Origin: Acanthochlamys bracteata
Taxonomy: Eukaryota > Streptophyta > Magnoliopsida > Pandanales > Velloziaceae
Assembly (NCBI GenBank): GCA_019914995.1
Contig: CM034138.1
Coordinates: 496,001 to 560,000, forward strand
Length of the DNA: 64,000 nucleotides
Direction of reading: 5' to 3'
Position numbers and translations under genes: made by a program. How positions within the stretch are numbered: the stretch's first letter is position 1; each line of letters opens with the position of its first letter. Positions 14,006-35,810 of the stretch are shown here, piece by piece. The notes beneath the pieces are model-generated. The model had not been told where the DNA came from. It was given only the letters and a program-made list of their open reading frames with translations, and did no database searches.

Positions 14006-17000
14006 TCAAAACAAAGGGTCATAATGAACGTGGATTATGCGGACATTGTTCCTTTCAAGGCCTAAACCCAAGCCAACAGGAGGAACATCTTTGCTTCTCT
14101 CATGGTTATCGTTGGACGCAGAAGAATGGGAATGACCGTGCTGTCTGGAGCTCTTTGACTCCACATCAATGCGGACATGACTGTGGTCATTCCCACTAGC
14201 AAAGTGAGAATGGCGTCCCTCCCCATTGCAAAGGTTACTGTTCCTCATCATCTCAATCATCTCTGTTTCCTCAGCCAGTGATGTCCTTTCTGAGCAATCC
14301 ACATCCTCATTGTAGCCTTTGATTAAGAAATCTGCGCAATTCTTACATACACCATGGTCATATGGATTTCTAAATAGGCCACCTGGTCCTCTGAGGTACT
14401 TGTATCGCATGGAATTTGCCATTTCATTTGTTGTTATATTGCGGGAAATCTGCAAAAGACAAATGAAAACTTAACAACAAAGTGCCGTCATATTATACAA
14501 GCAGACACCAATAACAAGTGCTATCATATTAAAGTCATCTGCCGTCATAGCACGTGACAAAAAGCAAATCAGGTAACCAACCTGTCAGAAAAATCTACAC
14601 ACTTCACCTCTTACCTGTGATGCTTGCACAACAGTCAGCACTGCCACTCCAAAGAAAAGCATGACGTCCATTATGACAAATGATACAACTCCTGGATTGT
14701 TTGAGATACTGTAGTTCATCCATTCACCAAAGGAACTTGCAATGCTTGTATCGGTTGCTATTCCTACTCATAAAGGAAACAGGAAAAATCACTTTCCTGT
14801 TGGGAATGACTTCAATAGACGAGGAACTTTAAAAACATCATACTCTAATAAGACATACTTGTAATAGCTACAGCACCCGTAACTATCATTGCAGAAACTT
14901 CTAGGATGAGAAACATAAAGAACTCCCACTTATTTCTCTGAAACAGTGTATGTAACTGAATCATAAGATTACCAAAGAAAACAAGGCAAGATGGTAACAT
15001 AAAAACAGAAGAATAACTCCCAGAATAAGTTTTAAGATGATTTGCTAGAACAATACCTTGCCAATGCAATTAGATACCCAAGGGCAATGATGATCAAATT
15101 GCTCCACACAACGATCACATGTTGAGCAATGCTTTGAACGGATAGGCCTCACAATCTACGCAATCATTGGCATAAATACGAATTGAGAACCCTCTCAAGG
15201 AAATTTTCTAACAAGAGAAAGCACCCTGGTATATGAACAGAAGAAACAAGAAAGTGAGAACAATGAAGAATAAGTAAACTTGTACCTTGCATGTAGCACA
15301 AAGCTGAGACCAATTTCCAGCTAGTAGAGCAGGATGATCCAGTTCCATTTTTAACAAAGGTTCCTGTTGCACAGAAAATTTAGATAAGTTTCAATCAAAA
15401 CCCAAAATACGTCTCATATTATCCAGTCTCCAAGATATCGATAAAAGCTCCCAGTCCTCACATGACATCCTAATATTTGAGATAGCATTCACTCCTGTAA
15501 TTAGCCAACATAAAAGTTTCCAAACTGCCAATGGCAATGATATTGCAGACTTAAATCAATTTTCTAAATTAGCTAAGCTAGTGCCTGGAATTGCATGGCA
15601 ATAAGCTGACATTGTACAGAAATTACGACATACTGTATCTGCTCCACATGGAAGGTATCATAACCAAGCTTCTACAAAAATTGGTTTTCTGATAAAAACT
15701 ATGATCTCGACATTGAAGCCTATACTGATAAAGAGAACAAAAATGCACTCAACATGAAGAATGGAGCCAGATACCGCAAAAGTAATGAGGTATTAAAACT
15801 TCAAGCTTAATTATTAACTTTATTTTAAGGAGTTAGCCATAGTAACATCAGATCCACATCTCATGAGGCACTATACTATCATGTGATCCCATCCAACCAG
15901 TTAAATAGAGGTAAGAGTGAAGAAAGCATCCTAAAAATAGATGTAGACATTACATATTAGTTCATGCATGATAGAATCAAGAGCTTATATAGAAGCAGGT
16001 TTTTAGATGCCATAGACAAGAACACATAAACATGATAATAGAAATATCAACAAGAAACTTACATCATCTCTAGCATTCTGTGGATCACGAATATTTCTTT
16101 TGACATAACCAGGGTCCTTCCTGTGAATATACTTAATAAAGTGAAAATATATAATATTGCATAGCAACCTTCACTAAGAGAGCAAAACAGAAGCAATAGA
16201 TGCTGTGACAAAGAGAGATAAGAAAGCACAAGAACTAAAAGACCAAAAGCAGATAAAGTAACTACATACGAAAGTTTTCTTTTCCTCCAAAAAATGACAG
16301 GTATTGGCTTAAGAGATTACTATGCAACAATTGCCAGAAAACAAGTAGGTTTCTTCATGATTAAATCCATGAAGTAGTCTACATTAACAAGACATTTTAA
16401 CTTGGCCTCCAATCTTATGAATACTTTTTGCTAGTCAATCAAGCATCAATTCCAGGTTCTTTAAGTGATCTACCAAATAAGGATAAACAATTAATCTAAG
16501 AAAGTTGCTCTCATATGCAATCTGAAAACCTTATTAACTACTTGATGGAGAACAAAGTGGAGAAGAAATGACAAATACTTGTGTAGAGCCAAAACTAGAA
16601 CTACAAGATTTGCTCAATGACTGCTTATAGTATCATCTAAAACAAACAAACAAAAAAAAGGAGGAGATGAATACCTGCTACATCTGTAAAACATAACAAG
16701 CCCAGATGTTGCAAAAACTACACCTAACCAAGCACAAAGGCCTAACCCTGCTGTTAACTTTGAGGCATAAGATCCTGGACAAAACGTGAATTCAAGATAA
16801 GAAGCAAATAACAAAAATAGTCCATATCTTTATTTACTTCAGAATGTTACAAGCCAAGATGAAACACACCTATAATAACCGACTGTATGTAAGTAATAAG
16901 TAGAAGAATGATTATGAACCAAAGAGCAGGTGCAAGCCCTAATTTTGAAAGTTTTCCAAGAGGGGTGTTTGCATCACAACGTCGTTCAAACAATCGCCTA

Positions 17001-19182
17001 GCGTTTCCCTGCAAGAACAAACAATCAAATCAATATGATGTCATCATATGCTCTGCAGCATCCTTGTTTCAGCTTCATCAACTAAAATCAGATAAGTGTA
17101 ATCTTCTAGCATGTGAATTCCAAGAATTCCTAGATACAAGGAAGCTCCACTAATTGCATTCTATATTGTATTCACTTACATAAGTGGCTAGACCTCACAT
17201 AGCCAAAGTATCAAAAGACAGAAAGGTATTTACACTAGAAGCATACATCTTAATCAGCCAAAATCTGGAAGGTCCCTATTTGACTCCTAGTACAAAACTA
17301 CTACTTCATGATACTAAGAGTACATAAAATCTTAGTTCCTATATTCGTATCTAAATTGACCAAAAGTAACAATCAAATATTTATTATTCCAAGAACAGAA
17401 TACCTACAAGAAAGAATGCAACTTGCCGATGGCTCTTATCAGAAGCAAGCTGAGCTGGAGTGAAGCCAGTATTATCTGTCACCATAAGGTCCTCCTTTTT
17501 ACCAGCTTGTACTAATACCGTGCATGCCTCCAGGTTTCCCCTAATAGCAGCCCAATGAAGAGGAGTGCAGCCTACATTAATGGCATTAATTAGTAAAGGG
17601 TCAAAACCTACTCCATAGAAAAAGGAAATGCTGAAACTAGATTCTTAATGGGACCCCAATTGAAAAACAAGGATTACTAAGTAAAACCATTACCTTCTTT
17701 ATCTTGGCGCCCCCTATACGCATCAAGAAATAATAAAATACGTATGCAATCGGTGAATCCCTTATAAGCAGCCCTGTATTTTCAAATATGAAAAGAGCAA
17801 AAAAATTGGTCAAATTATTGGCACTTCCTGCAGTGCCAAAACTGATCTATCAAACCTCAACATATGAGAATAAGAAACTATATGCAGTAGCAACTGAAGT
17901 CATAATAACCATTATGATGAACCCGAGCATGCTAAACATGAAACACACAGATGCAGAATTCGCAACTGACAATCTAATCAACTCTTACCAGATGCTGTAA
18001 ATGTAAAGAAAAGCACAAATTTCAAAAACAAAATACCGATTGCAGAATGGGGAAGAGAACACTAAGTTACCAATGCAACGGGCTTCTCCCATCATTATCA
18101 GGGACATCAGAGTCAGCATTCCATTTTGTGACAATATGGTAGAGAAAGGCGGTTTGTCCATACTGAGCAGCAACATGTGTTGTCTGCAATTATCGAAACT
18201 TGATTAATGGACATGAAACAAAGACACAGGTTGTGTTGTGCAAAAGAAGTTGCAGCATTTCAGAAGGAGTTAATGTGATAATACTAGCATTTCTAGCATT
18301 GATCAAAACATTCTCACTCTGCACTATTTCTTCTAACAGTGCCGCCCACAGACAAACTTAATAAAAGTTGTAGATATTCTAGTCCTTCTATAGGGAAGTA
18401 AAGAATTATGTGAGTGTAATAAAGATCTTAAGTCTCTATTTAATATAGTCATTCTAAGAAAGACAGGTACCTGAAATAGCATGTCACTATAGTAGAATGC
18501 TGACCTGATAACCACAGAGGTCTGCAGCATCAATACGTGCACCCTCTTTCAGCAAGAGCTCAGCAACGTGGATGTGACCGCGCACAGCACTCCAATGCAG
18601 TGCTGTTTGCCCTGTGTGATCTGCTGCATTCACATCTGCTCCACGCTGACACAAAGCAATTTCAGTAAAGCACAGATTTTGTAGTGATATTCATTAAATT
18701 TGGAGAAGAACCAACTACAATGACTTGAATGATTGAAAATTGACCCCAGTCAACACTTCAAACATCAGAAACTTTGCTCATAACAGTTATTCCATCAAAT
18801 TTTAAGCTAAGTAAACTCCCAACTTCAAAGTTAGTCTCCGAAGCATATTCTCCACGAGACAATCATCTAACTAACATGCGGAGCTCAACAGCAACAATAG
18901 CATAGACATTTGTTTCAATCAAAGCCTGCCCACCTCGATAATGAACAGCGCAGCAGCGGTGCGATTGTTGAGAGCTGCCCACTGTAACGCGTAATACCCG
19001 AGCCCATCAGGCTCTGCAACAGAACAACCTTCTTTCTCGACCAGCCGTTGAAGCTTCTCTAGATCGCCGTAAGCCGCCGCCGTATACACATCGTTCCTCA
19101 GCTCCGCTACCTCATCTCCCCTTACGCTGTTGCTTCCCACCGCCGTTGTTGACTCGTCTACAACCTCAATCTCCGACGCCAT
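14006..19182 (-). CDS. TIP1: Ankyrin-repeat DHHC protein S-acyltransferase, TIP1/PAT24 type
   Basis: Thirteen minus-strand exons give 630 aa: 19182-18934, 18645-18505, 18183-18071, 17773-17694, 17571-17408, 17008-16870, 16774-16675, 16120-16063, 15363-15286, 15155-15057, 14937-14859, 14763-14615, 14449-14006. All phases agree. Ankyrin repeats fill about residues 60-265 (for example [13 protein letters not shown]). Two transmembrane segments follow, then the zinc/catalytic cysteine-rich domain with DHHC at 395-398 (Cys398 is the acyl acceptor), then two more membrane segments and a His-rich tail ending near [13 protein letters not shown]1 palmitoylates proteins at Golgi/plasma membranes; Arabidopsis mutants have short root hairs and small cells. 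The start at 19182 ([10 protein letters not shown]) is preferred over an in-frame candidate at 19296 because it matches the TIP1 N-terminus. Confidence 0.95.
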
Positions 19183-19299
19183 TGGAAGATTTTTTTTAAC
19201 AAATTTTTTGAAAAAATTCGAACAGTTTTTACAGATATGGATTTGAATTGAATGGGCCGGAGAAGGAATGAGACCGACCGAAGCAGCACTCAACAATCG

Positions 19300-22190
19300 T
19301 GCGAGAAGGACTTGAAAACATTTCAGAGAAACCCTGGGCTTTTTTTAAATGACAAAAATATTCATATTTGTTTGGCACTGTGTACAGAAATGTAAGGGGT
19401 ATTGTGTAAAATAGAAATTGATTTCCAAAATAGTTGAGATTTTGTTTACTAATATTTATCTAACGTTTGCAAAAAGCGCAAGTAGGCAAATACAAATTTA
19501 GGAACAAATTTTCTCAGTTGACAATTAAAACGAGGAGTTTTGAAACAAGTCATCAACTCCTTGCACCTGCCATCACCACTACAAAAATTCTCAAAATATC
19601 TTTTTTTTTTAATAAATTATTTTTAAAAAAATACTCTCAAATATTTTCTAAGCGCAGTTACTAAATAAATCAATAGAAAAGAAAAATTTTTATATTACCC
19701 CAATTGTATAATCTAACTCATCTATTAAGAGTACGTATTTCATTCCGAAATAACTTTCTTTTTAAAAAAATAATAAATACTTTTTAACTTTTTATTTAAA
19801 AAACAAAATTTATTTTATTTAAAATTTTTTTTTATTAAAACAAAGTGCCCCAACCGGCAAGCATTGATCGACTGTGTAAGAGATAGGAAGCGGATTGGTG
19901 CGAGCTCTGAAGGGCGATCACTCTCACTTTTCAATCGTATTAAAACGTGTTTTAAATATATGTAACTAAATTTTGAAAATTAAATTTTATAAAAATAAAA
20001 TTTGATGAGTAGTGAAAAAATAGTAGAATTCGAAATGATATTTAAAATAAATAAATTAAATTTTGAAGTTCAATTTTGATAAAGTTAAAGTTCAGTATAA
20101 AAGTAATGTTCAGAATAACAATTGAAACGCATAAAATGATCGAATTTAAAATTTGAAAAAAAAAAAGTATAATTTGATATACTTGAAGCAAGCTTTAAAG
20201 CTCACTTTTTTTATCAGATTTTAAATTCAAATCATTTTTTATTTTCAATATACCTCGCTCTCACCGAACTCATTTCTAATCAATTTTTTACCAAACTTAG
20301 TTTCAATGAACTCAGTCTTGCAGAACTCATTTCTTACTAATTAAAAAGTGTCCTAAGAATATCACAAAGTCCACCTCATGAACTACTCCAGCCAAAGACA
20401 AACATATCCATACTTTCACACGGAATCACATAAGTATTTAACAACAGTGTATAATTCACACCACTAAAAAAAAAAAAAAAAACGTTCTGATATAACAACG
20501 TTAAATACTTGTTGTCACTATGGCCAAGTCCACACCCAAATTGAGGACATTTTGTATTTACTACATCAAATAACGTGCCCAGACAATTGGGAGGTCTATG
20601 CTTCATATTGATCTTCCATCCTAAAAGCTAAGGAAACACACTGCTTATTTGGTTTTCAATTCTATAGATACAGTAATGCATGTTAACATCTTTGGACTGC
20701 AAGGTAGTAGGTTTCATGATTCAGTAGTGGGTTCATAGTTCAAATGCACTTAACAACAACGCCTATCCGGACAAGTCCAGATATCATTGAAGTTAATTAT
20801 ATCATCGAATGCAAGCTCTCTATGTGATAGCAATTACACAAGAAGTCCTAATTTGGTTTCATAGCTATCAACTTTAAACATCTGTTCAGCAAAATTTCCA
20901 CATTTATTTTTTAAACAAAATACATAAAAGAAGGTACACAATTTGTGAGAAAGGGCACATGCAATTGCAGAATAAATATGCAGTCACTGGGATACATCAA
21001 TTTCCGTAAGTTGGTGGCAGCTTGGTTTAATCTTGTCTAAACTGAGTAACATATTCTCAATATTTCAAAGAAATGACAAAATTCTGCACTATATATTGAA
21101 TTTTTTTCGAAGCAGTAACAACCCAGTAGGACATTCAATCGCAAGTTTTTAAGTTGAAGATTTTCTACATGATGTACACTCCATTACCCAAATAGCCTAC
21201 TCCCATAGTCTTATAATCTCAAAACTATAGCTAACAAAACCACGATAACAAAATAGGACCTTTGAATAAGAATCAGGGCTATGCAATCCTCCTCCTTCGA
21301 ACCATGGTCATCCTTATGGAAATGAGAATAGCGTGGAATGCGTGAGAGAATGGGAGCAAATGACAACAATGTGGGACACTGGAAAGTGTGGGTGAATGGT
21401 TGTAACAAAGAAACGTTCACTCCCGAAAAAGTGCAAACCGTCTTTGGCAGTGAGCTCCTCAATATTTAAGATAAAGGTGTAAAACCGGCTGAGTTGAGTG
21501 GAGAAATTGTAAATAGACAAATGGAAGTGTAAACTCAGACGATACCACTATAACTGAAGTTTCAATGAAGCAGTCCAGCAAACCTACTGAGATTACACTC
21601 AAGTTCTTAACAAGCTGTTCATGAACACTATAGGTGAGATGCCTATGTTTCATTCATTAAATGCTTGAACTCCTTTTAATTTTTCAGAATTCATTGAGTG
21701 GACACGTTAAATCAACAATCTTAGTTCAGCATTATAGCATCAACTTATATTTTATCTCCAACCCTGCTACAACTTTGAGGCTAAAGACTCACTTCTCAGG
21801 TTTACTGTAAATAGACTAAAGAACACGGATACTCTACATATACGAAAATCTATATTTTCTTTTAAACTTTGATACAGTAGTTAACACAGTTATTACCAAA
21901 AAGATTTTAAAACTATGAGAAATTTTAGCTGAACAGATATCATAGCTGCAATAAAAAAAAAAGACTTAAAAGTATAGCTAACCAAATACTTTTTCTTTCA
22001 TGATGTAATTTATAAAGCATTTTATCAAAAGTAACAAAACACTACGCATTCTCCACTAAACATAATATTAATTCTCCATAAAACCTAATGAGAGATAAGC
22101 AACCCACAAGGACATCAATTCCAAGTACGACCACTACTAGCAATTATCAAAATACATAAAAATTATTACCAATCACAATGCTCTTATTGC
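19300..22190. other. Gene-free spacer, AT-rich
   Basis: About 2.9 kb between the S-acyltransferase start and the TTM3 stop. The left half is strongly AT-rich and resembles degraded MITE ends (19560-20230). There is an A18 run at 20466-20483. Open frames are short, overlapping and unlike anything I know. The last few hundred bases are probably the 3' untranslated region of the CDC26/TTM3 transcript. Confidence 0.5.
20466..20483 (+). repeat. Homopolymer run (A)18
   Basis: Eighteen consecutive A on the plus strand in the spacer. Likely length-variable. Confidence 0.9.
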
Positions 22191-22196
22191 TTAGCT

Positions 22197-22814
22197 TCAC
22201 GGCAGCAGCTTTCCCGCACGGAAAACAGCAAATTTAGACTTCTCTGAATAGGCGTACTCTACGCCGTTCTCCTTCAGGAACACCTCCATCATCGCCTTCA
22301 CCTTCTCCGGCGATGTTGTCTCGCACTCAACCTCATAACTCGTTCCGAACTCATACTGCGTCTCATCGAGCTCTAACACCACCCCATCCTTCCAATTATA
22401 AACCGCCCTAACATTCTTAAATCCTCCCAAACACACAAATTTATCACAGCCATCAAACTCCTTCCTAATTCTCTCCATAATCCTCGAGTTCAACCCAGAA
22501 AGCTTCATCGGATCAGCAACGCACTGCCTGCCAACATCAGGCTCAATCTCTTCCTCATCTTCCTCAACCCTACTGATCCCACCCTCAATCCTCGCTTTCG
22601 CTTTCAACGAAATCACACATTTGGAATCACCATCATAGAATCGAATCCGCAACACAGCAAGCTTTGCAGATAACTCACCGGAGACACCGTCAAAGAAGAA
22701 ATTCTCTTGTAGATGAGTCTTAACATGGTAAGCTGAGAGTGCTTCCGATAGCTTCTGGTGAGCACCAGAATCAGGGAGCCGGAGCTTGACTTCAACTTCG
22801 ATTGGGTTATTCAT
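22197..22814 (-). CDS. TTM3: Triphosphate tunnel metalloenzyme 3 (CYTH-domain tripolyphosphatase), second cistron
   Basis: A single uninterrupted exon encodes 205 aa, the usual plant TTM3 length. The CYTH signature ExExK is at residues 6-10 (EVEVK). Other tunnel strands follow: LRIRFYDG and CVISLKAKA in the middle, RVEEDEEEIE, then VVLELDETQYEFG, SYEVECE and KFAVFRAGKLLP at the end. Plant TTM3 hydrolyses tripolyphosphate with Mg2+. I start at 22814 because family members begin directly with the EVEVK strand. The same frame is also open upstream to an ATG at 23072, which would add an unrelated 86-residue extension. The start codon overlaps the stop of the CDC26 frame (ATGA), so translation from a shared mRNA by reinitiation or leaky scanning is likely. 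Confidence 0.92.
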   Translation of the reverse strand: MNNPIEVEVKLRLPDSGAHQKLSEALSAYHVKTHLQENFFFDGVSGELSAKLAVLRIRFYDGDSKCVISLKAKARIEGGISRVEEDEEEIEPDVGRQCVADPMKLSGLNSRIMERIRKEFDGCDKFVCLGGFKNVRAVYNWKDGVVLELDETQYEFGTSYEVECETTSPEKVKAMMEVFLKENGVEYAYSEKSKFAVFRAGKLLP

Positions 22815-23014
22815 TCGATCCCAATTCGTTGCGATTTCGATTGCTGCTGCTGTTGTTGGTGGTTTAAGAGATTGGCTAGTGAAGAAATTTGAGAAGAGGA
22901 AGAAGATTGGATTGATTGCGGCGGCGGAGAAGGTTGGCGATGGCGGGGGAGATCGAGAAGTTCGTCGCGGTCTTCGGGTTTCAGATCGATCTTGGTGGGT
23001 TTGCGGCGGAGCAT
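22811..23014 (-). CDS. CDC26: CDC26, small subunit of the anaphase-promoting complex, first cistron
   Basis: A 67-aa frame, in a different frame from TTM3, starts MLRRKPTKIDLKPEDRDEL. This is the conserved CDC26 N-terminus (human begins MLRRKPTRLELK), the segment that threads through the CDC16/APC6 TPR superhelix and stabilises it. The C-terminus ends with QRIGIE, resembling the conserved RIG motif of the family. The middle is Pro/Ser/Gln-rich with a run of six Gln. Its TGA (22813-22811) overlaps the TTM3 ATG (22814-22812). In Arabidopsis, CDC26 and TTM3 are reported to come from one bicistronic transcript, and this locus shows the same order. The ATG context is weak (T at -3), which may let ribosomes scan past to TTM3. 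Confidence 0.88.
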   Translation of the reverse strand: MLRRKPTKIDLKPEDRDELLDLPRHRQPSPPPQSIQSSSSSQISSLANLLNHQQQQQQSKSQRIGIE

Positions 23015-23072
23015 TGAGAAAAAATCGAGCGATTCTTTTTATTGGATTGGGTTGTTTTGATATTCGCCGCAT

Positions 23073-23084
23073 TCAATTTCTCAT
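23073..23084 (-). promoter_or_regulatory. Possible three-codon upstream ORF before the CDC26/TTM3 frames
   Basis: ATG AGA AAT TGA reads on the minus strand immediately ahead of an ATG at 23072 that opens the extended TTM3 frame. If the transcript starts upstream of here, this mini-frame could influence which downstream start is used. The transcription start is not visible from sequence. Confidence 0.25.
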
Positions 23085-23109
23085 GGTCTTTGAAATATAC
23101 TTGAGATTT

Positions 23110-24400
23110 TTGCTCTGATGAAAAGATAGACTGGTTTGTTCTGTTAGTGTGAATCATGGGCCTTAGTCCATATCATAATGGGCCTCCAAAAGTGAATGAA
23201 TTCAAACGCCTACCAGAAAATTAAGAAATTATCAAATTTAATATATAAACCCCCAACAAAGTCCTATGTAATAAATCAAGCTTTAAAAAATGGTTCTTCT
23301 TAATTTGCCTACTACAGCTTTAATATAACCTTGATCTTCAGTTCTTCACATATTCGACTGAGGTTATTCCATGATTAGCGCATACAGGAACTACAGATAA
23401 AAAAATACATCGTCTTTGTTTTACCTTACGTAGTATATACCACATTTCATTGATAGGAAGATGCTAACTGAATTCGGCACCTTTTAGCAGTATTTTTAAT
23501 AATTTTTTATTTTATATTTTTTAATAAATTTTTTTAATCTACAGAATTTTTTTTTAAATATAAAAATTTCAGACCTTATTATTATTTAGTTTTATTATTT
23601 TTTAATAAAAAATAGAAAATCTTTTTATTAAAAATTTATAAATTATTCTTTATTTAAAATTTTTATTTCATAGCACTCTCAAACTTTTACAGAATTTTTA
23701 AAATATTTTTAAATATTAAAAAGTTTTATGTCATTAATTATTTTATTATTTATTTTTGTTATTTTTTAATTAAAAAATATATTTATTTTATTAAAAAATT
23801 TAATTTATTTTTTTATTAAAAAATTTATTTTATAAAGACTTTCAAATATTTTAAAAAATGTCTCAGAAATTCATTGTTCAGTGTAACTTCAAAATAGAAC
23901 TCACAATTACACAAAGGGATGCATTACATCTCTTCTCAAATACAATAAAAAGAATGTACACAAAACAAAAGGGTACTCAAACAAGTACCAGTAGTATTCT
24001 AACACGAAATTCAATAATTACGATCGAGTATAGTATTAGATTGAATTGTTTTTCGAATAATCGCATTACAGAAGAAACACGTCCTCTAACGAAAAAAAAA
24101 CTACATTAGAATAACGCATGAAAAAGAACACATCCTGGATTCCTGGTTGGTAAAACAAAAATTTCTTTCTCTACATATGGACGAGTGTGTACTCTATATT
24201 GCCTACTTAACTTGTAGTTGCCTCACAGATACGCAAAAGGTGCTCCACAAAGAGAAGGGCAGGAGTTGCTGTGAAGCAATGATATCGAAGGACAAGAAAT
24301 TTCCATGCGATTAATTGAGCTTTGTATTCGAGCAACAGTACATATCCTTGAAAGTTGAATCACTACAACATCTCAGCATGCAGCTAGTTGAACGGAAACA
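23110..24400. other. Spacer with AT-rich MITE-like stretch
   Basis: Between the CDC26 start and the PHT4 stop. Positions 23480-23860 are extremely AT-rich with repeated TTTTTAATAAATTT-type words, probably one or two degraded MITEs. The remainder would hold the CDC26/TTM3 promoter and the PHT4 3' untranslated region. Confidence 0.45.
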
Positions 24401-24408
24401 TCAGAACT

Positions 24409-27400
24409 TTAGTGCTGTGAATCGCTTTCTGAAAAACTCTGAGGCTTGCTGCTGGCAAATGCTAACCATACCGCTGCACCAGTTACATAAAAGAAGATAG
24501 ATGGAACGAACAAAGATAGCTACATGCACAAAACAAATCAAAGATTAGGAATGGGGAAAAAGACGATCTCATTAGAAAATGAGGTGCAAAGAAAATTATG
24601 ACTACTGATAGCTTACACTCCATGAGTGGGTTGAATCAAGAAGATATCCTGTCAGAGCAACTCCGACAATTCCAGGTACAGCACCTACAGTGTTGGTGAT
24701 ACCCTGTAGGAAACGGTGAAACAGTCTGATGCTGTCAACCTCTAGAGGAGTTTCTTCACAATTTTTCTACAACAGCTTAACAAAACCTCGATCGTCTCAT
24801 ATTTGAGCAAGGTACTTCGGATAATTGCACATATCTTATGGACTACAAATCAAATCTACCATTATACATAACTTATGTCTAACCTTATGGACTATATTAC
24901 TTCATTGGTGCAAAATGTATAACAGTATGGTAGATGAAGCACAGTTCAGGAACTTGTTATTAGTGGTAACTTCCAAATAAGAAAGAGTTTAGGCATAACT
25001 GAGTTGTATGACATACCAGTAGTATGCTAGCATACTCAACGGAAATGTCTTGATGGGTGCAGTAGAGTCCTTGCAGGAAAAGAATATATACTTTAGAACT
25101 CGGCCTTTAGATAAACTCATGCAACAAGCAAATTACTTAGAATTAAAAAGAAAAGAAAGCACCTGACAAGGCAAAGCTTGAGAGTGCCAAGCCACCTGTA
25201 AGAATTGCTACAACTTCCCATGGTGACAGCCCTAGATCCAAAGAGCAAAGGGTCATGCAAATTGCGGGAGACAGAAAGGCAATCGTTTGGCAAATTTTTC
25301 GAACCTACAAGCCAAGGGAAATGATGCATCAGAAATGAAGACAGCCTTTTATTATCATCGTAACTTGATCTGAGAGCACACTACTTTTATCAAGTTTAAC
25401 TATGCTGGTCAATATCCATGCTCAAAAGGAATGGCATTGTCGTAGAAACAAACCCACCGTCGTAGTTTCAACTCCACTTGCAATCAAATTGTCAGCAAAA
25501 GATGCTGCAACCGAAGTAATTAGGAGTGAACCTAGTGGAGGAAGAATTGATACCTGAAACGGTTGTTATGGTGACTTTCGTAAGATCTATATTAAACTTA
25601 AAAGATAATAACAAGAGCGAAATTTAAAAAGAAAAGATTCTTCTATCACAGACTTACCCATGCTGCTTCCATCAAATTTAGGTTCAGTTCCTCACTGCAT
25701 TGAAATAATAAAATCAGCTCAATATCGTCTATAAGGGCATGTTAAAACTTGCCAACAACATTTACTAGAACCTAATGATGGTACATGACTAAATGACCTA
25801 TCAGTTTCTTCAGAGTGTTTTTACTTGATTATAATGACTAGAAACAGAAGAGAATAGACATGTATACAGAATCGCATACCTAAAGTATGTTGGTAACCAA
25901 GACAGACATGTGTAATGGCCCCAACTTCCACAGAAGTGAGCATAAATCATTGCCCATACTGCTTCACTCTTGAAGAAAGCCTTCCAGGGAACATCCTATA
26001 GCAGAAGAAGCTGTAAGAGAGTCATTTTCTTCTTCATAGCCATGGACAAATATTAGATGAAAAATCAATATAAAAAATTCAACGTTATAACAAGAGCCTA
26101 CATGTCTCTTTACTAAATTCTTAAAAGAGCAAAGTTCTTGAGGAATTTCATGGTTATCTTTTATTCCTAATCAGATAGCCTAGCTACTCAGCAGGTATAA
26201 CAAAGAAATTTATTTAATTCCAGTACTGGAACAAAGTATCTTGTGAAAACGTCAATATCCTCTCCTTCCCAATTCATCTCATTGAGCATTAGTACTCATC
26301 TTATTTCCTACCACTAGACGCTGCTATTATGGCCTAATTTCAATTTTTATCTGCTAACACAGAAAGCATACAAGCAGGCAGGCAGTACAGGCATGAATTC
26401 GCATGGCTAGACTTCAACTGGATCATCATGCATAAAATCATAGGCTCTCAAAGCAGGTTCTGGAATTTGTTTGACTTGGACTCAAGTCAAAAGTCACAGA
26501 AAAATGACTGCTGATTTTATAATTGATATTCATCTTCTAGGAATACTCAAATTACATAAAACAGATAAGCAGAGTAGCGTCCACAAGAACCATTGTACCT
26601 TGACTGAATCACCCAGTTCACTCAATGATCGATCCCTTAACTTGCTAATAGATGTAAAAGAAGAGTTGCTCAAGAAAGTTCGCTCTGGACCTGTAAAGGG
26701 CCATCAGTGATATTCAAAAGTTTCCAAAAAGAGAAATTTGGTTATTTCACCTTCACAACTGAAATAATAAGGAAAAAGAAACACATACACATCACGCAAG
26801 GACCATCTATATCAAATTCTAAAGCATTTATATACCGTTTCTCATTCCTCAGTTTGCAAATGCAAACTAGTAATATTTTAGAGGGACAAGGGCGTAGAAG
26901 TTCAGTGTAAGCTAATCAGATATTAGTGGCTGAAAATTTTCTTTCTAATTTTATTACCTAAAAACGTACTTATTTGTCAGGTTACTCTGTCTAAAATAAA
27001 TCTTGCATCTTCCCTTTTGAGCGACTCATTCAGCATATCTATAACCATCTTAGACAAACATGCTGATATGATGGTAAATAAATAAGACCAACGTAGGAGC
27101 CTAAATCTCAGAAAGCAGTATTATCTTATCTTACCGAATATATCGAGGCCCTCAATCAATGATTTCCCTTCCTTCAAGAGTTCAAATCCCAAACACCTTA
27201 TACAAACAAAAACAAGCATAAATCAAACCTTCGTTAAACATTCATTAGGCCACATATGATAATGCTGAGCATTTCCGTTAATCTTAAAATATTTTATGCA
27301 AGAAAATCAAAATCCAGAGGTACAATGTAACTTGATATTTTTCTTACATAAGCATGTGCAAAACAAGTTACACAGGCAAAGATGGTTAAATCTAAAGCTT

Positions 27401-29886
27401 TAATATCAAAACTTCACTTACCAAATGATACCAATAATACCAAATGTGTAAAAGACAGACTCCCAGCCAAAGTTTTGGATGAGGGGTGGCGCCAAGAGTA
27501 GCCTGTAGGTTTAAGCAAACAATTGTAAATGAAAATTGCAATGCTCAGTTCCTATTTCTACATTTCTCAGTAAATATATAATACATCTAAGAGTAGGTCC
27601 CATATGCTACCGAATACAAATGAAATAAAGAAGAGGCAGGCATTTTTGTATGCCTAAATGCCTATAGACATAAACGGCAACAAGTGCTAATAAACTTCAA
27701 CAGTAAATAGCTGAAAAGCACCACACAGCTATAGGAAATCATCTCAAAATTTATTTTGATCTTAGAAATAACAGAAGTAAATTAAGTAACTTCAGACAGA
27801 TTAACCATGAGCTTTCAGCAATAATATATCTAAATTTTACAGAACTAATAAGGTAGAATCTCCTGTGTCTCAATATTGGAGATTTGGGGACAAGTGTATG
27901 CCCAAAGTCAATCACAGTGCATGATAGCTAGTTCAGGGAGATATATTACTTTCATCAAGGGAAATCTATTATTTGAAGTAGCTGGACGTAGATGTAAGCA
28001 GCATACAACAGGGCTGGAGCTTATTTCAGAATGGTTAGTGCAAAAATTATTTGATGAGTTAAGTGTTACGATCCTCTAATACAAAATGCAAGAAAGCAAG
28101 CGCTGGTCGTATAAGACTATAAACCTAGAGTCACGCAAAAATAATAAATAAATAATAATAATAAATAAAACATACCCAAGGACACTTCCTATGCTCAAGC
28201 CACCAAAAACCACACCCACAGCCCTGGAGCGTTCTTGTAGAGGTACAGTTCTGCGTTCAATTTAAAGGCTAACCACATAAGTAAAGAACAATTTCCAACT
28301 TGAAAAAGTTAAAACAGATGGAATACTGTAAAGGCTGCAATGGAACCAAAGAGAAATTATGATATGATACTCATGGCAAGTATCAGTCTATATGTGCTTA
28401 AAATGTAGAGAGAACCATCATACAAAGTAAAGAAGTATTCAAACTCCTGATTAAATAGAAATGAGCAATCTCCCAGAAAAAGTTGAAGCAGAACTTAACG
28501 GACCTTGCAATCATGTCAGTGGCAGCTGATGGGGAAACCCCTTCACCTATTCCCACCTGCATCAGAAAATAGGGGGAAAAAACTCCATTACAATGGTTGG
28601 AGCTTCTTACTGCAAGTAAATGGCATCACTATATCATGAATTATATTCCATAATCTATGAAAACACTTATATGATAGACAATTAGCCCATTATATATCTC
28701 ATTTCTAAAAATTTTATGAACTAAATTGAATTTTTCCAGTAAGACTCTAAGTACATTATTTTTCATTTAATAGTTACCATATTAGATACAGTTTATGTAA
28801 GCATTGTAGTGATAAAAATTGCATTTAGTAGAATGAATAATGGCATGGTTGCTTAAATATAGTAAAGACAAAAGAAAAGCATTGCTAGTGTAAAGGTCCT
28901 AGTCGAATCATTTGCATTAAGTTACCAAAATTCTAGATAAAACTAGTCCAGGCATGAACCCAGCTGCAAATGGGACAAGCGCTGTCGCCAAAGACCAAGC
29001 CAGCACTCCAACTCCAAGGACTTTCCTACATTACAGAATCTGATAAGCAATCTAATAAGCCTGAAAAAACACACACCAGGACCATATGTCTGTCTAATAT
29101 CGCATATAAGCTGAGTTCATAATATACCAACCTCCCTCCAAAAATTTTCGCAAGCCATCCACCTGGCAATTGACTTAAAGCATATCCCCAGAAGAAAGAA
29201 GATTGAACAAGGCCAGAAGTTGATGAGCTCCAACCAAACTGATGCGACATTGGAATGATTGCCACACTCAAGTTTACCTGTACAAAATGGAAGGCATAAG
29301 CAGTAACATGGCATGACAGTTGTGTACCAACAAGGAAGCTTTTATACTAGAGTTCGAAACTCACTTTTACTTCTTTGAAAAAGGAAATCAAATTTTTAAT
29401 TGATACCAAGCACAAGTAGCGCTAAATGTAACACGAACATCAAATTGACAACAAAATTCAGCAAAGTGATGCAAATTCAGTAAGGGGAGAACAGCTGTAA
29501 CTTGCCTTATCCATGTTGCAGACGACGAAAGCGAGAGAGCTGGCACCAATAAGCTTATACCTAAGCGGCAACTGTTGTAAAGGCGGCAATGGCCACTTCC
29601 ACTCCCAAACTTCATCTCCTAATTCTTTCTCTCCTTTAATAACTCCGTTAACAACTTCTTGCTTCAAAGCCTTCCTGGATCCACTACCACCACTACCAGC
29701 TCCGTCTCCACCGGAGTAGACACGAAGACTAATCAATCGTTGAGTACGGAAAGAAATAACGCCGGTTTGACGGAGCGATACGGCGGCGGGAAAACTTCCG
29801 TTGGATGTCAATAGGTAGTAGCAGCCGTTACTATTGCTCAATGGAGAGAAGGTCAGAGCAAGATTTTTGGAAGCCATTGAAGGCAA
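24409..29886 (-). CDS. PHT4: Plastid-type PHT4 anion/phosphate transporter (major facilitator superfamily)
   Basis: Fifteen exons give 543 aa: 29886-29506, 29277-29132, 29025-28926, 28556-28504, 28250-28176, 27502-27422, 27196-27135, 26690-26599, 25995-25880, 25694-25658, 25553-25458, 25304-25163, 25069-25017, 24703-24617, 24519-24409. About 100 N-terminal residues rich in Ser/Arg look like a transit peptide. The MFS core follows: CNMDKVNLSVAIIPMSHQFG, QSSFFWGYALSQLPGGW, SRILVGIGEGVSPSA, GSWGHYTCLSWLPTYF, GLYCTHQDIS, GITNTVGAVPGIVGVALTG. The PHT4 family carries Pi and other anions across plastid or Golgi membranes. I cannot separate PHT4;3 from PHT4;5 by eye; neighbours (TIP1, PHOX, MGDG synthase) favour the PHT4;5 lineage. 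Intron 1 must be GC-AG (29505 GCAAGT). ATG at 29877 is an alternative start. Confidence 0.93.
29278..29505 (-). other. GC-AG intron (non-canonical donor) in the PHT4 gene
   Basis: Exon 1 has to end at GAT AAG and exon 2 to begin at GTA AAC TTG to give the conserved CNMDKVNLSVAI. The bases after AAG are GCAAGT, matching the known AG|GCAAGT consensus of GC donors. The acceptor is TTTTGTACAG. No GT donor in the right phase is nearby. Confidence 0.85.
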
Positions 29887-31034: not shown

Positions 31035-34000
31035 TTAGAAGATTTTGAACAGAATGCCACCATGCACGGCGAAGAATGGTGCAAAGACGAGTGATTCAAC
31101 AGCCATGAGCTTGATGAGAATGTTGAGTGATGGACCAGAAGTGTCTTTGAGTGGATCTCCAATGGTGTCGCCAATCACAGCAGCCTTGTGGGGATCTGAT
31201 CCCTTAGGTCCAAGAGTCCTAGCATGCTCAGATGCTCCAGCCTTTACAATATAGAAGTAGATTATATGGCAGCTTAAAAAATTCGTCTACAGAAACAAAC
31301 CCAAATTTGAAGGGAAAATACCTCAATATACTTCTTAGCATTATCCCATGCACCACCAGTGTTGGATGCAGAAATAGCAATCTGTACAAGGTACATTAAG
31401 GAAATGATGAATATAAGAGAATTAGGTGATCAACTGATGAAATATAAATGTTACCAACCTGGACACCAGAAACGAGAGAACCAGCAAGAACACCTGAAAG
31501 AGTTTCAACTCCAAACAAGGTTCCAACAATTAAAGGTGTAAGTATGACAAGAGCGCCTGGAGGAATCATCTCCTTGATAGAGGCATCAGTAGAGATCTTA
31601 ACACAGGTAGCATAATCTGGCTTTGCGGTGCCCTCCATAAGACCAGGAATGTTGTTGAACTGCCTGCGGACTTCCTCAACCATCTTCAGTGCTGCACTGC
31701 CAACACTCTTCATGGTCATAGCGGAAAACCAGTACGGAAGCATAGCTCCAACAATAAGCCCAATAAAGACTTTGGGGGTCAAAACATCAACAGTTGAGAT
31801 TGCTGCTCGGCTAACAAAGGCTCCGAAAAGTGCAAGTGACACCAAGGCAGCTGAACCAATTGCAAAACCCTGAATTTAAAGGACCAGCATGTAAGTATTT
31901 CTTCAGTTTGAGAAAATCAGAAAATAAGGTTTCACTCAAATCTACTCATAATTCAGTAGTGATAACGATTCATACTATTAGTTCTTTCAAACGCTGCTAG
32001 AAATATGGCAGGATGATTAGAATATAACATAGACGATACATGCAGATATGGTAATACCATAATGGTAACTCCTAAAAACCAGTGCTCATACCTTTCCGAT
32101 GGCTGCTGTGGTGTTTCCTGCAGCATCCAAAGCATCAGTTCTCTCACGAATCCTGTGGCTCATACCAGCCATCTCTGCAATGCCTCCAGCATTATCACTA
32201 ATGGGGCCATATGCATCAATAGCAAGTCCAGTAGCGATGGTGCTCAACATTCCAAGAGCTGCGACGGCAATTCCGTACATGGCAGCAAGGCTGAAGCTCA
32301 CAAAAATACTAACGGCAATAGCAAAGATGGGAATAATGACAGACTTATATCCCAAGGCTAGTCCAAAGATAACATTAGTGGCAGCTCCAGTTCTGCAGGA
32401 ATCAGCCACATCTTGCACAGGGCTGTATGATAGCGACGTGAGGAATATCAGAGAAAATATTTTAGGGAATGGGGAAATTATACCCAAAAGTTAACACGAA
32501 GGAGAAACAGATGAAAAATTGTTACCTGTATGCATTGCTTGTATAGTATTCAGTGACGAAGCCAATGATCAGACCTGACCACAAACCAACTGCTACACAG
32601 AAGAACAACTCCCTGGCCAAAATCAGGCACAAAAGATGATAAGATGACACAGAAAAGAAAAACAGATTTTCACGTACATGAGATGAAGTAACTATTTACT
32701 TCTTACCAGTTCTTCACCTCCTTCTGGACGCCAAAATTGAAGATTGTGAAAGATGACGGAAGGGCAACCCAGCTAACAATTGCAATTCCAATGGTCATAA
32801 GAGCAGTAGAAATGATCAGCTGCCTCTTAAGTGCAGGCTCAATATCCTTGACCTGCTTTATCTCAAAGAAGTCGGTTGCAAATAGAGTTGTAATTAAACA
32901 AACAACTATTCCCATTGAGCTAATGAGCAGGGGGTACAGCATTGCAGTCAGGTCATGGTAAATCCCAAAGGAAGAAATAGATGCAACAACAAGGGCTGCA
33001 CAAGAAGACTCTGCGTATGAGCCAAAAAGATCCGAACCCATTCCAGCAATATCACCAACATTGTCTCCAACATTGTCAGCAATCACCTACAGACATAAGA
33101 TATGTGAAAAAGTCATCTCATATGAACATAAATATTGAGACAAACTAGAAAGAGCTGAGGACGCAGAATAGAAAACTAAATTATTTTGCGATAACGTTAT
33201 CCCCCAAGCAAGATGCTTACAGCTGGGTTTCTTGGATCATCCTCGGGAATGTTTCTCTCAACTTTGCCAACAAGGTCAGCACCCACATCAGCAGCTTTTG
33301 TGTAGATTCCACCACCAACCCTCCCAAAGAGAGCCATTGATGACCCACCAAGACCATAACCAGTAATGGCCTCAAAAAGTCCTTCCCAGTCATCACCATA
33401 ATAAAGCTTGAATAAGTTGATGGCAATGTAGAGCACCAGAAGCCCATTGGCAGCAAGCAAAAAGCCCATCACAGCACCAGAACGGAAAGCAGCAATAAAA
33501 GCTTTTCCAACACCCTTTCTTGCCTCTAGTGTTGTCCTGGCATTTGCATATGTTGCAATCTTCATGCCAAGGAAGCCAGAGATCACTGAGGTGATTGCAC
33601 CAAGCAAGAAAGACACTGTGCTGAAGACAGCATTAGCAAGTGCAGGCTTGCAATATTTCTTCTTGGTGTAGGTGCAAGGCTGAGCTTTTGTGCTGAAACC
33701 TTCCACAGACCCAAGAAACAGGAAGATAAGAACAGCAAAAATAACCATGAAGATACCAACATATTTGTACTCCGTATAAAGGAAAGATGTAGCTCCTGTC
33801 ATGAATACAAAAGTTTTATCAGAAAGTGATTGTCAAGACAAAGTAAGAAACCTTTAAATGAAAATGAAGCAAAACAGCTCAGAAAAGACTGCTTTTGACC
33901 AAGGGCGTGTTTACCAACACCCCAAACTCCACTTCCCTCAAACTCAAGTTTCACATAAATACATATAAAAATTAAAATAAAATTTTTTTATCAATAAAAT

Positions 34001-35810
34001 TTTTTAAAAATTCAAATTTAACACTTACTATAAATATATAATTAATATAAAATTTTATTTTTTATTAAATATTTTTAATTTTTAATTTTATTTTTTAAAT
34101 TTATTTCCTAAAAACTCCACTTCACTCAAAACTCCACTTCCCACCCCCTTGGTAAACACGCCCCAAACATAAGAGTTAACTCATAAGGCACTTCTCCCAA
34201 ATTGCCTGATATGCTCTAAAATTCATAAAAAAAGATCCCAGCTCATTCTCTTCCTACATTTTTTGGAGCTATGAATTAAGTGGTTATCAGTAGATGCACT
34301 TTCTAAAAATATCAATCTGTTGATTCAAATTGTTTTTTGACTTCTAAATTCAGTTTTTAGCAAGAAAGAATGCATGTTGTTTATCACAAATTAAAGTGAG
34401 TCTCCAAAGTGTAGATCTAAACATCAACCAGAAAGATGAAGATATCTTCATCTAAACAAATGTTAGAATTGTCTTCAAATTCAAGAGCATTTAACCTAAG
34501 GGAATATGTTAAGACAGATTCTCAAAACTACAATAAAATAAAAAAAAAAGGTTAATGACGACAGATTCACAAAAATTATGTCAATGTTCAAGCACATGAA
34601 AACATAAATAACTCCAACAATCCTTCATATGAAGGGACCAACAACCAGAATAAAAATATTGAGCATGAATCATTGTGAAGCAACCATGTACTTATACTAG
34701 AAGATGTGCCAGATCCAGATCTAGAGAAGGTTAAATCATCATAACATCAGACACTGACTGAATGCATACAAAAAAATGTAGACAATGGAAGCAAGATGAC
34801 ACCTGGCTAGAGTTAAATGCAAGACTTATACCATTAAAATAAAGCAATCAGACTTTTCATATGTACCAGTCCAACACATGGATGTTAGAATTGTCTGTAT
34901 ACATATATTAGATCTCAACCAACTTCCAGTAAATCCAAAAACACCCACACGAACTTAAAGATTTCTGTGTATCTTTAGAGATTTCTGTTAATCTGTAAAC
35001 TATTCCCTGATTACAGAAAGGGCATTGTTTACTACTTGACACCTTTATGCAACAATTTTCAACCAAAACTTAACAAAATGCAATGGTTTTACTCAACCAC
35101 CTTGTCTTCGTGATTATACTTCAATGTTGATTTGCGCAGATATATTAGCTAACAATATAGCTAAACATGTAGTTATTTAGATGTCAAAGGTAAACATTGC
35201 CAAGAATCAGTTAGCATAAACAAAGAAACAAATATAACCATTGAAATCCTCCAATACAAAAAACCAATATCAATGGAAAAGAAAAACAGAATCCAAAGCA
35301 GAAGAGTTTGCAAAGAAATACTATAATACCACACAAAACTTCCGCCCTAAAATTGAACTAGCTTGCAATACTAAGACGCTATCCATCTGGAATATTTTAA
35401 AGTTCTAATCCTTTTAACCAGCTAGCCACTGAGATCCAAAACGCAACCCGAACCGCGGAAAACCAAACTCAGCAAATTATAAACAAAGAAACAAACACTT
35501 CTCGTTTCCAGATCTACAGCAACTTAGTAGTAAGCACTTCGAAATCTCAGACCAGACCTTCAGAGATAGCGCTCTGTATTTCAGCGCACTTAACAACAAC
35601 GTTGTGGTCATTCAACCCTTCTTCTTCTTCAATAAGGTAATCGTTGTGCCCGTTCTTCTTCCCTCCTGACTGGTTGTTGTTGTTGTTCTCTGGCGACAGC
35701 GTCACTTTCGAAACCAAAACCCATTGAAACAGAGCAAACAAGATTCCGATCACCGCTGCAACAGGTACCAGCACCTCCGTCAACACTTCCGATAGTGTAG
35801 CCGACGTCAT
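31035..35810 (-). CDS. AVP1: Pyrophosphate-energised vacuolar membrane proton pump, type I H+-PPase
   Basis: Eight exons give 767 aa: 35810-35558, 33795-33221, 33086-32707, 32612-32526, 32422-32092, 31869-31459, 31381-31322, 31241-31035. The enzyme couples PPi hydrolysis to H+ pumping into the vacuole. The PPi/Mg site is seen at residues 254-276 ([18 protein letters not shown]), followed at about 279-300 by [19 protein letters not shown], and near the C-terminus by [26 protein letters not shown] at 534-542 carries Ala rather than Lys, typical of the K+-dependent type I pumps. The N-terminal segment has an Asn-run/Lys-rich loop after the first membrane helix, as in other plant vacuolar pumps. 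Intron 1 is long (1762 bases) and carries a well-defined MITE. Confidence 0.97.
33903..34163. mobile_element. Tourist/PIF-Harbinger-like MITE in intron 1 of the H+-PPase gene
   Basis: A 261-base element with perfect 15-bp terminal inverted repeats GGGCGTGTTTACCAA (33903-33917 and, reversed, 34149-34163), flanked by a 3-bp direct repeat CAA (33900-33902 and 34164-34166). The word AACTCCACTTC recurs three times inside. The interior is AT-rich and codes for nothing. The GGGCNTGTTT-type end and 3-bp target duplication suggest a Tourist/PIF-Harbinger derivative, although the usual TAA/TTA target is not seen. Confidence 0.88.

Follow-up and report, generated by a model that had tools for sequence, protein, structure and literature searches.

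An intact CDC26-TTM3 gene pair with overlapping stop and start codons in Acanthochlamys bracteata, and a decayed duplicate

Layout of the locus and identity of the two proteins

The window analysed here – 64,000 nucleotides of Acanthochlamys bracteata contig CM034138.1, positions 496,001 to 560,000 – contains on its minus strand a short open reading frame that runs directly into a longer one. The features referred to below are as follows, with positions numbered from the first letter of the window.

22811..23014 (-): CDC26 frame (ORF 1), 67 aa, MLRRKPTK...QRIGIE, stop TGA; putative APC/C subunit
22197..22814 (-): TTM3 frame (ORF 2), 205 aa, without internal stop; predicted CYTH tripolyphosphatase
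22811..22814 (-): ATGA, the TTM3 start overlapping the CDC26 stop
22815..23011 (-): CDC26 coding stretch without an ATG in any frame
22815..23072 (-): possible extension of TTM3 at its N-terminus by 86 aa, in frame and overlapping CDC26; an open frame, probably not used
23073..23084 (-): possible upstream frame of 3 codons (MRN stop), should the mRNA begin at a sufficient distance upstream
23157..23184 (-): pair of GGCCCA boxes (Element II / site II) spaced by 22 bp and located 170 and 148 nt before the CDC26 ATG

An earlier note on this DNA had described a 67-residue minus-strand frame whose stop overlaps, as ATGA, the start of an intact 205-residue CYTH frame, with weak bases at position -3 of both ATGs. 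This description holds throughout: the short frame is correct to the base (23014-22811), the long frame is uninterrupted from 22814 to 22197, and the ATGA lies at 22814-22811, where the ATG (22814-22812) and the TGA (22813-22811) have two bases in common and the reading frames overlap by 4 nt. Neither start codon has a purine at -3: the CDC26 context is TTCTCAATGCT (T at -3, C at +4) and the TTM3 context GATCGAATGAA (C at -3, A at +4). Since both frames are uninterrupted, TTM3 needs no intron. CDC26 immediately precedes TTM3, in the same orientation, both here and in a decayed second copy described below.

The 205-residue protein is, by its sequence, a TTM3/CYTH protein for which tripolyphosphatase activity is predicted. 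First, it matches the Pfam CYTH domain over residues 5–195 (E=1.1e-22; 81.2 bits against a cut-off of 23.2). Second, it matches four distinct PDB sequences (best E=2.6e-78), named TTM3, TTM3-like, CYTH-like phosphatase and adenylate cyclase. Third, 109 of 198 aligned residues are identical to PDB 3v85, which we take to be Arabidopsis TTM3, and all 10 of the 10 functional positions compared (E2, E4, K6, R52, R54, K76, E90, E169, E171 and K200) are conserved; we count K6 and K200 among them on the assumption that they are further AtTTM3 functional positions. The available part of PMC4641920 names E2, E4, R52, R54, K76, E90, E169 and E171 as metal- or substrate-binding residues of AtTTM3, in a numbering that agrees with that of 3v85. 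Sequence alone leaves the activity unfixed, since the best PDB match (6yp4) is a chain named adenylate cyclase. Elsewhere in the window, coding stretches at 31396-33832 on the minus strand resemble an H+-translocating inorganic pyrophosphatase (Pfam match over 33200-33832 only); their presence at a distance of about 8 kb or more from TTM3 is probably a coincidence.

The 67-residue frame scores just below the cut-off for Pfam PF10471 (23.4 bits against 24.5; E=1.1e-4). It aligns from residue 1 with the CDC26 chains of PDB 4ui9 and 3hym (best E=0.095 and 0.17), presumably the human APC/C subunit, and the first seven residues, MLRRKPT, are the same, in agreement with the earlier reading of this motif as the CDC26 N-terminus; beyond it the sequences are diverged (E=0.095 at best). 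The score by itself leaves the identity open, and it is because of the N-terminus and the position before TTM3 that we call this frame CDC26, a putative APC6-binding subunit of the APC/C. A PF10471 profile search of the assembly gave no match anywhere, and was uninformative because its 14 controls were equally unmatched. With both proteins identified, a chance overlap of two frames is rejected.

A decayed duplicate of the pair

Searches of the 195.5-Mb assembly (557 contigs) place CDC26 matches at E<=0.001 in two places, the window locus and C14:7144645-7144845, the latter with one internal stop. The TTM3 protein likewise matches the window locus and a site directly after the C14 copy of CDC26, there split into two pieces, the first of which contains five stops. 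The CYTH model finds the window locus and, on C4, one additional short stretch, and has no match at the decayed C14 copy, though the window TTM3 protein matched there. The decayed pair occupies C14:7144649-7145431 (4150-4932 of L006, a 9-kb stretch of C14), with 77% DNA identity to the window pair (638/827 alignment columns). Both of its frames are broken – there is no alignable CDC26 start, and there are single-base deletions, stops and frameshifts – and the adjacency of CDC26 and TTM3 and the TTM3 ATG are still visible. A pseudogene at the window locus is rejected, as both frames are open there and it is the C14 copy that has decayed; the window pair is the only intact CDC26-TTM3 copy found in the assembly.

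Comparison of L006 with the window gives 14 matching pieces, of which 13 are collinear (window 16647-29786), consistent with a whole-genome or segmental duplication. The remaining piece (33898-34124) is out of order and overlaps a dispersed repeat. The collinearity identifies the C14 pair as a collinear duplicate of the window pair, and the idea of a retrocopy is rejected for the same reason. The repeat itself, presumably MITE-like judging by its size, is present at L006:3802-4022, just upstream of the decayed copy, and at window 33898-34124, where it was seen in the L006/window comparison only. All 40 of the candidate places that were scored (40 of 1793, the query's own place included) match it, and one of its copies stops some 25 bp short of the GGCCCA pair that belongs to the decayed gene copy.

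The differences between TTM3 and its decayed counterpart fall mostly at third codon positions (31/192 first, 17/189 second and 57/190 third; p=2.5e-7 for second versus third), and TTM3 was therefore selected as a protein for at least part of the divergence. The decayed copy shows that the pair was duplicated and that its two frames were lost together in one copy, so that one intact pair remains. This joint loss supports CDC26 and TTM3 as a single unit only weakly, because independent losses would share a copy half of the time.

Upstream sequences and translation of the second frame

The decayed copy has a similar upstream pair of GGCCCA boxes, 23 bp apart. Global alignment left the boxes of the two copies unpaired and their order and spacing were compared directly, from which we infer that the pairs are homologous. 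GGCCCA is Element II of PCNA-2, tied to cell-cycle and meristematic expression, and its positions peak broadly around -73 relative to the transcription start, as given in the accessible part of PMC1832190. This peak would put the transcription start, very roughly, at 23090-23110, near the ATGs at 23084 and 23072.

The explanation that we consider probable is that this is a plant CDC26-TTM3 bicistronic gene, in which one mRNA is translated in both frames and TTM3 is reached by leaky scanning; its inferred parts are the single transcript, the use of both frames by ribosomes and the predominance of leaky scanning. A promoter upstream of CDC26 would give one mRNA, on which scanning ribosomes would initiate part of the time at the weak CDC26 ATG, yielding the APC/C subunit. 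Those passing it would scan roughly 200 nt free of ATGs and then initiate at the TTM3 ATG. The earlier note had left the choice between reinitiation and leaky scanning undecided; because no ATG lies within CDC26 beyond its own start, and that start is in a weak context, leaky scanning is a somewhat better fit to the sequence and reinitiation becomes the main rival. Experiments in green algae, according to the part of PMC11291117 available to us, point the same way: mutation of ORF 1 start contexts indicated leaky scanning, ORF 2 output drops as the ORF 1 context is strengthened, the bicistrons have weak ORF 1 contexts and a depletion of ATGs before ORF 2, and both reinitiation and an IRES are argued against.

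How unusual the ATG-free stretch is depends on the comparison. None of 1354 control stretches of 198 nt is free of ATGs, although these overlap, so that independent ones are far fewer; they come from ten of 19 window frames (TTM3 and nine more) chosen by eye as likely coding, and in a Pfam check on five of the nine, four matched and 14009-14470 did not. When CDC26 is resampled synonymously with its amino acids fixed (20000 trials for each null model), no extra ATG arises in 9% of trials with TTM3 codon usage, in 28% with the usage of TTM3 plus seven window frames, and in 50% when codons are permuted within the gene. The absence of ATGs thus appears to follow largely from the protein sequence itself, and this counts against the leaky-scanning explanation. 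There are two further points against it. First, the TTM3 ATG context is weak, and leaky scanning would favor a stronger one. Second, a transcript start upstream of 23084 would put two more ATGs before CDC26.

The main rival, which we regard as unlikely, retains the single bicistronic mRNA and has TTM3 translated mainly by termination and reinitiation at the ATGA overlap. The shared bases of the stop and start would leave no gap to cross, and the weak TTM3 context would matter less if termination delivers the ribosome there. However, ORF 1 has 67 codons and reinitiation declines with the length of an upstream frame, and the algal mutants behaved in the opposite manner to that predicted by reinitiation (both points from the available part of PMC11291117). 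Nor is there strong RNA structure over 22700-23100 (401 nt; z=-1.09, with 15 of 100 shuffles folding as well), and an IRES-like structure is set aside on the same measurement.

Less probable still is separate expression, with TTM3 made also or mainly from its own shorter transcript starting inside CDC26. Against it, both copies have a GGCCCA pair on the upstream side of CDC26, and a single bicistronic transcript is what papers that cite the Arabidopsis study describe in the portions available.

The last alternative stems from a point absent from the earlier note, that the TTM3 frame is open upstream as far as the ATG at 23072, giving a 291-residue frame that passes through all of CDC26. TTM3 could in principle also be translated from this ATG, the first 86 residues – rich in arginine, serine and proline – overlapping CDC26 in another frame. 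If so, the CDC26 stretch would be doubly coding, the 86-residue leader might act as a targeting sequence of the long TTM3, and one message would yield CDC26, the usual TTM3 and a retargeted TTM3. An open frame here is uncommon by chance: over CDC26 it is open in 3.6% of 20000 within-gene synonymous permutations, in 0.01% with window codon usage and in 0/20000 with TTM3 usage, and the equivalent frame is open in 14 of the 1354 overlapping 67-codon control stretches. The substitution phases point the other way. Differences between CDC26 and the decayed copy number 10/60 at first, 2/58 at second and 9/60 at third positions, counted over 22815-22995 only, as the decayed copy cannot be aligned over the initial codons. 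Second positions are thus the least different (2/58 versus 19/120 for the rest; p=0.023), and this opposes a coding extension, in which they would be the third positions and the most divergent ones expected. The test has weaknesses, as the numbers are small, a share of the differences arose after decay, and the near equality of first and third positions (10 and 9 of 60) is atypical of a constrained protein. In addition, the ATG at 23072 carries a T at -3, and its position may coincide with the 5′ end of the mRNA or fall outside it. We consider a coding N-terminal extension very improbable.

Comparison with known CDC26-TTM3 loci

This locus is confirmed as an ordinary member of a known and conserved class. 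CDC26 of Arabidopsis, rice and poplar was found in EST databases in 2010 (PMC3095333), and in 2012 HG30, At2g11890, was described as a putative dicistronic transcript with cdc26 as its upstream frame (PMC3426882). The 2019 Arabidopsis CDC26/TTM3 work of Lorenzo-Orts and colleagues is reported or cited in PMC7943633, PMC6973038, PMC9768141 and PMC11062462, and regulation by NMD and polysome recruitment has been reported for the Arabidopsis pair. A bicistronic transcript of the pair is named in barley (PMC12033307), and conservation of the locus across plants and green algae is stated in PMC11291117 and PMC11892635. All of these sources are taken from the parts available to us. They bear out the claim that the Arabidopsis pair is reported on a bicistronic mRNA, and leave no room for the novelty that the earlier note implied for the overlapping cistrons. 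Within the same limits, no statement on the stop/start overlap of plant CDC26-TTM3 was found in the literature searched, to which the primary 2019 paper did not belong; the accessible parts of PMC7500414, PMC9539442 and PMC9558237 cite that paper without mention of the overlap, and a search of PMC7106846 likewise gave nothing.

What is new here is a collinear duplicate of the pair in which both frames are broken, with one intact copy left; this decayed duplicate and the open upstream frame are the only additions to the known picture.

As in Arabidopsis thaliana (At2g11890, CPuORF HG30), where CDC26 is the short first frame and TTM3 the second on one transcript, this genome keeps both frames in the same order, as had been proposed. 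The length of ORF 1 is similar (65 aa reported for Arabidopsis in the available text, 67 aa in the window), and no difference of kind was found in a comparison that covered features other than the stop/start spacing. The green algal CDC26/TTM3 and other bicistrons (Chlamydomonas, Auxenochlorella) have, in the part of the literature available, the same gene order, a weak ORF 1 context and few ATGs before ORF 2; their ORF 2 contexts tend to be stronger than those of ORF 1, whereas in the window locus both are weak. The window supplies a further plant example of a deeply conserved departure from the rule of one mRNA, one protein.
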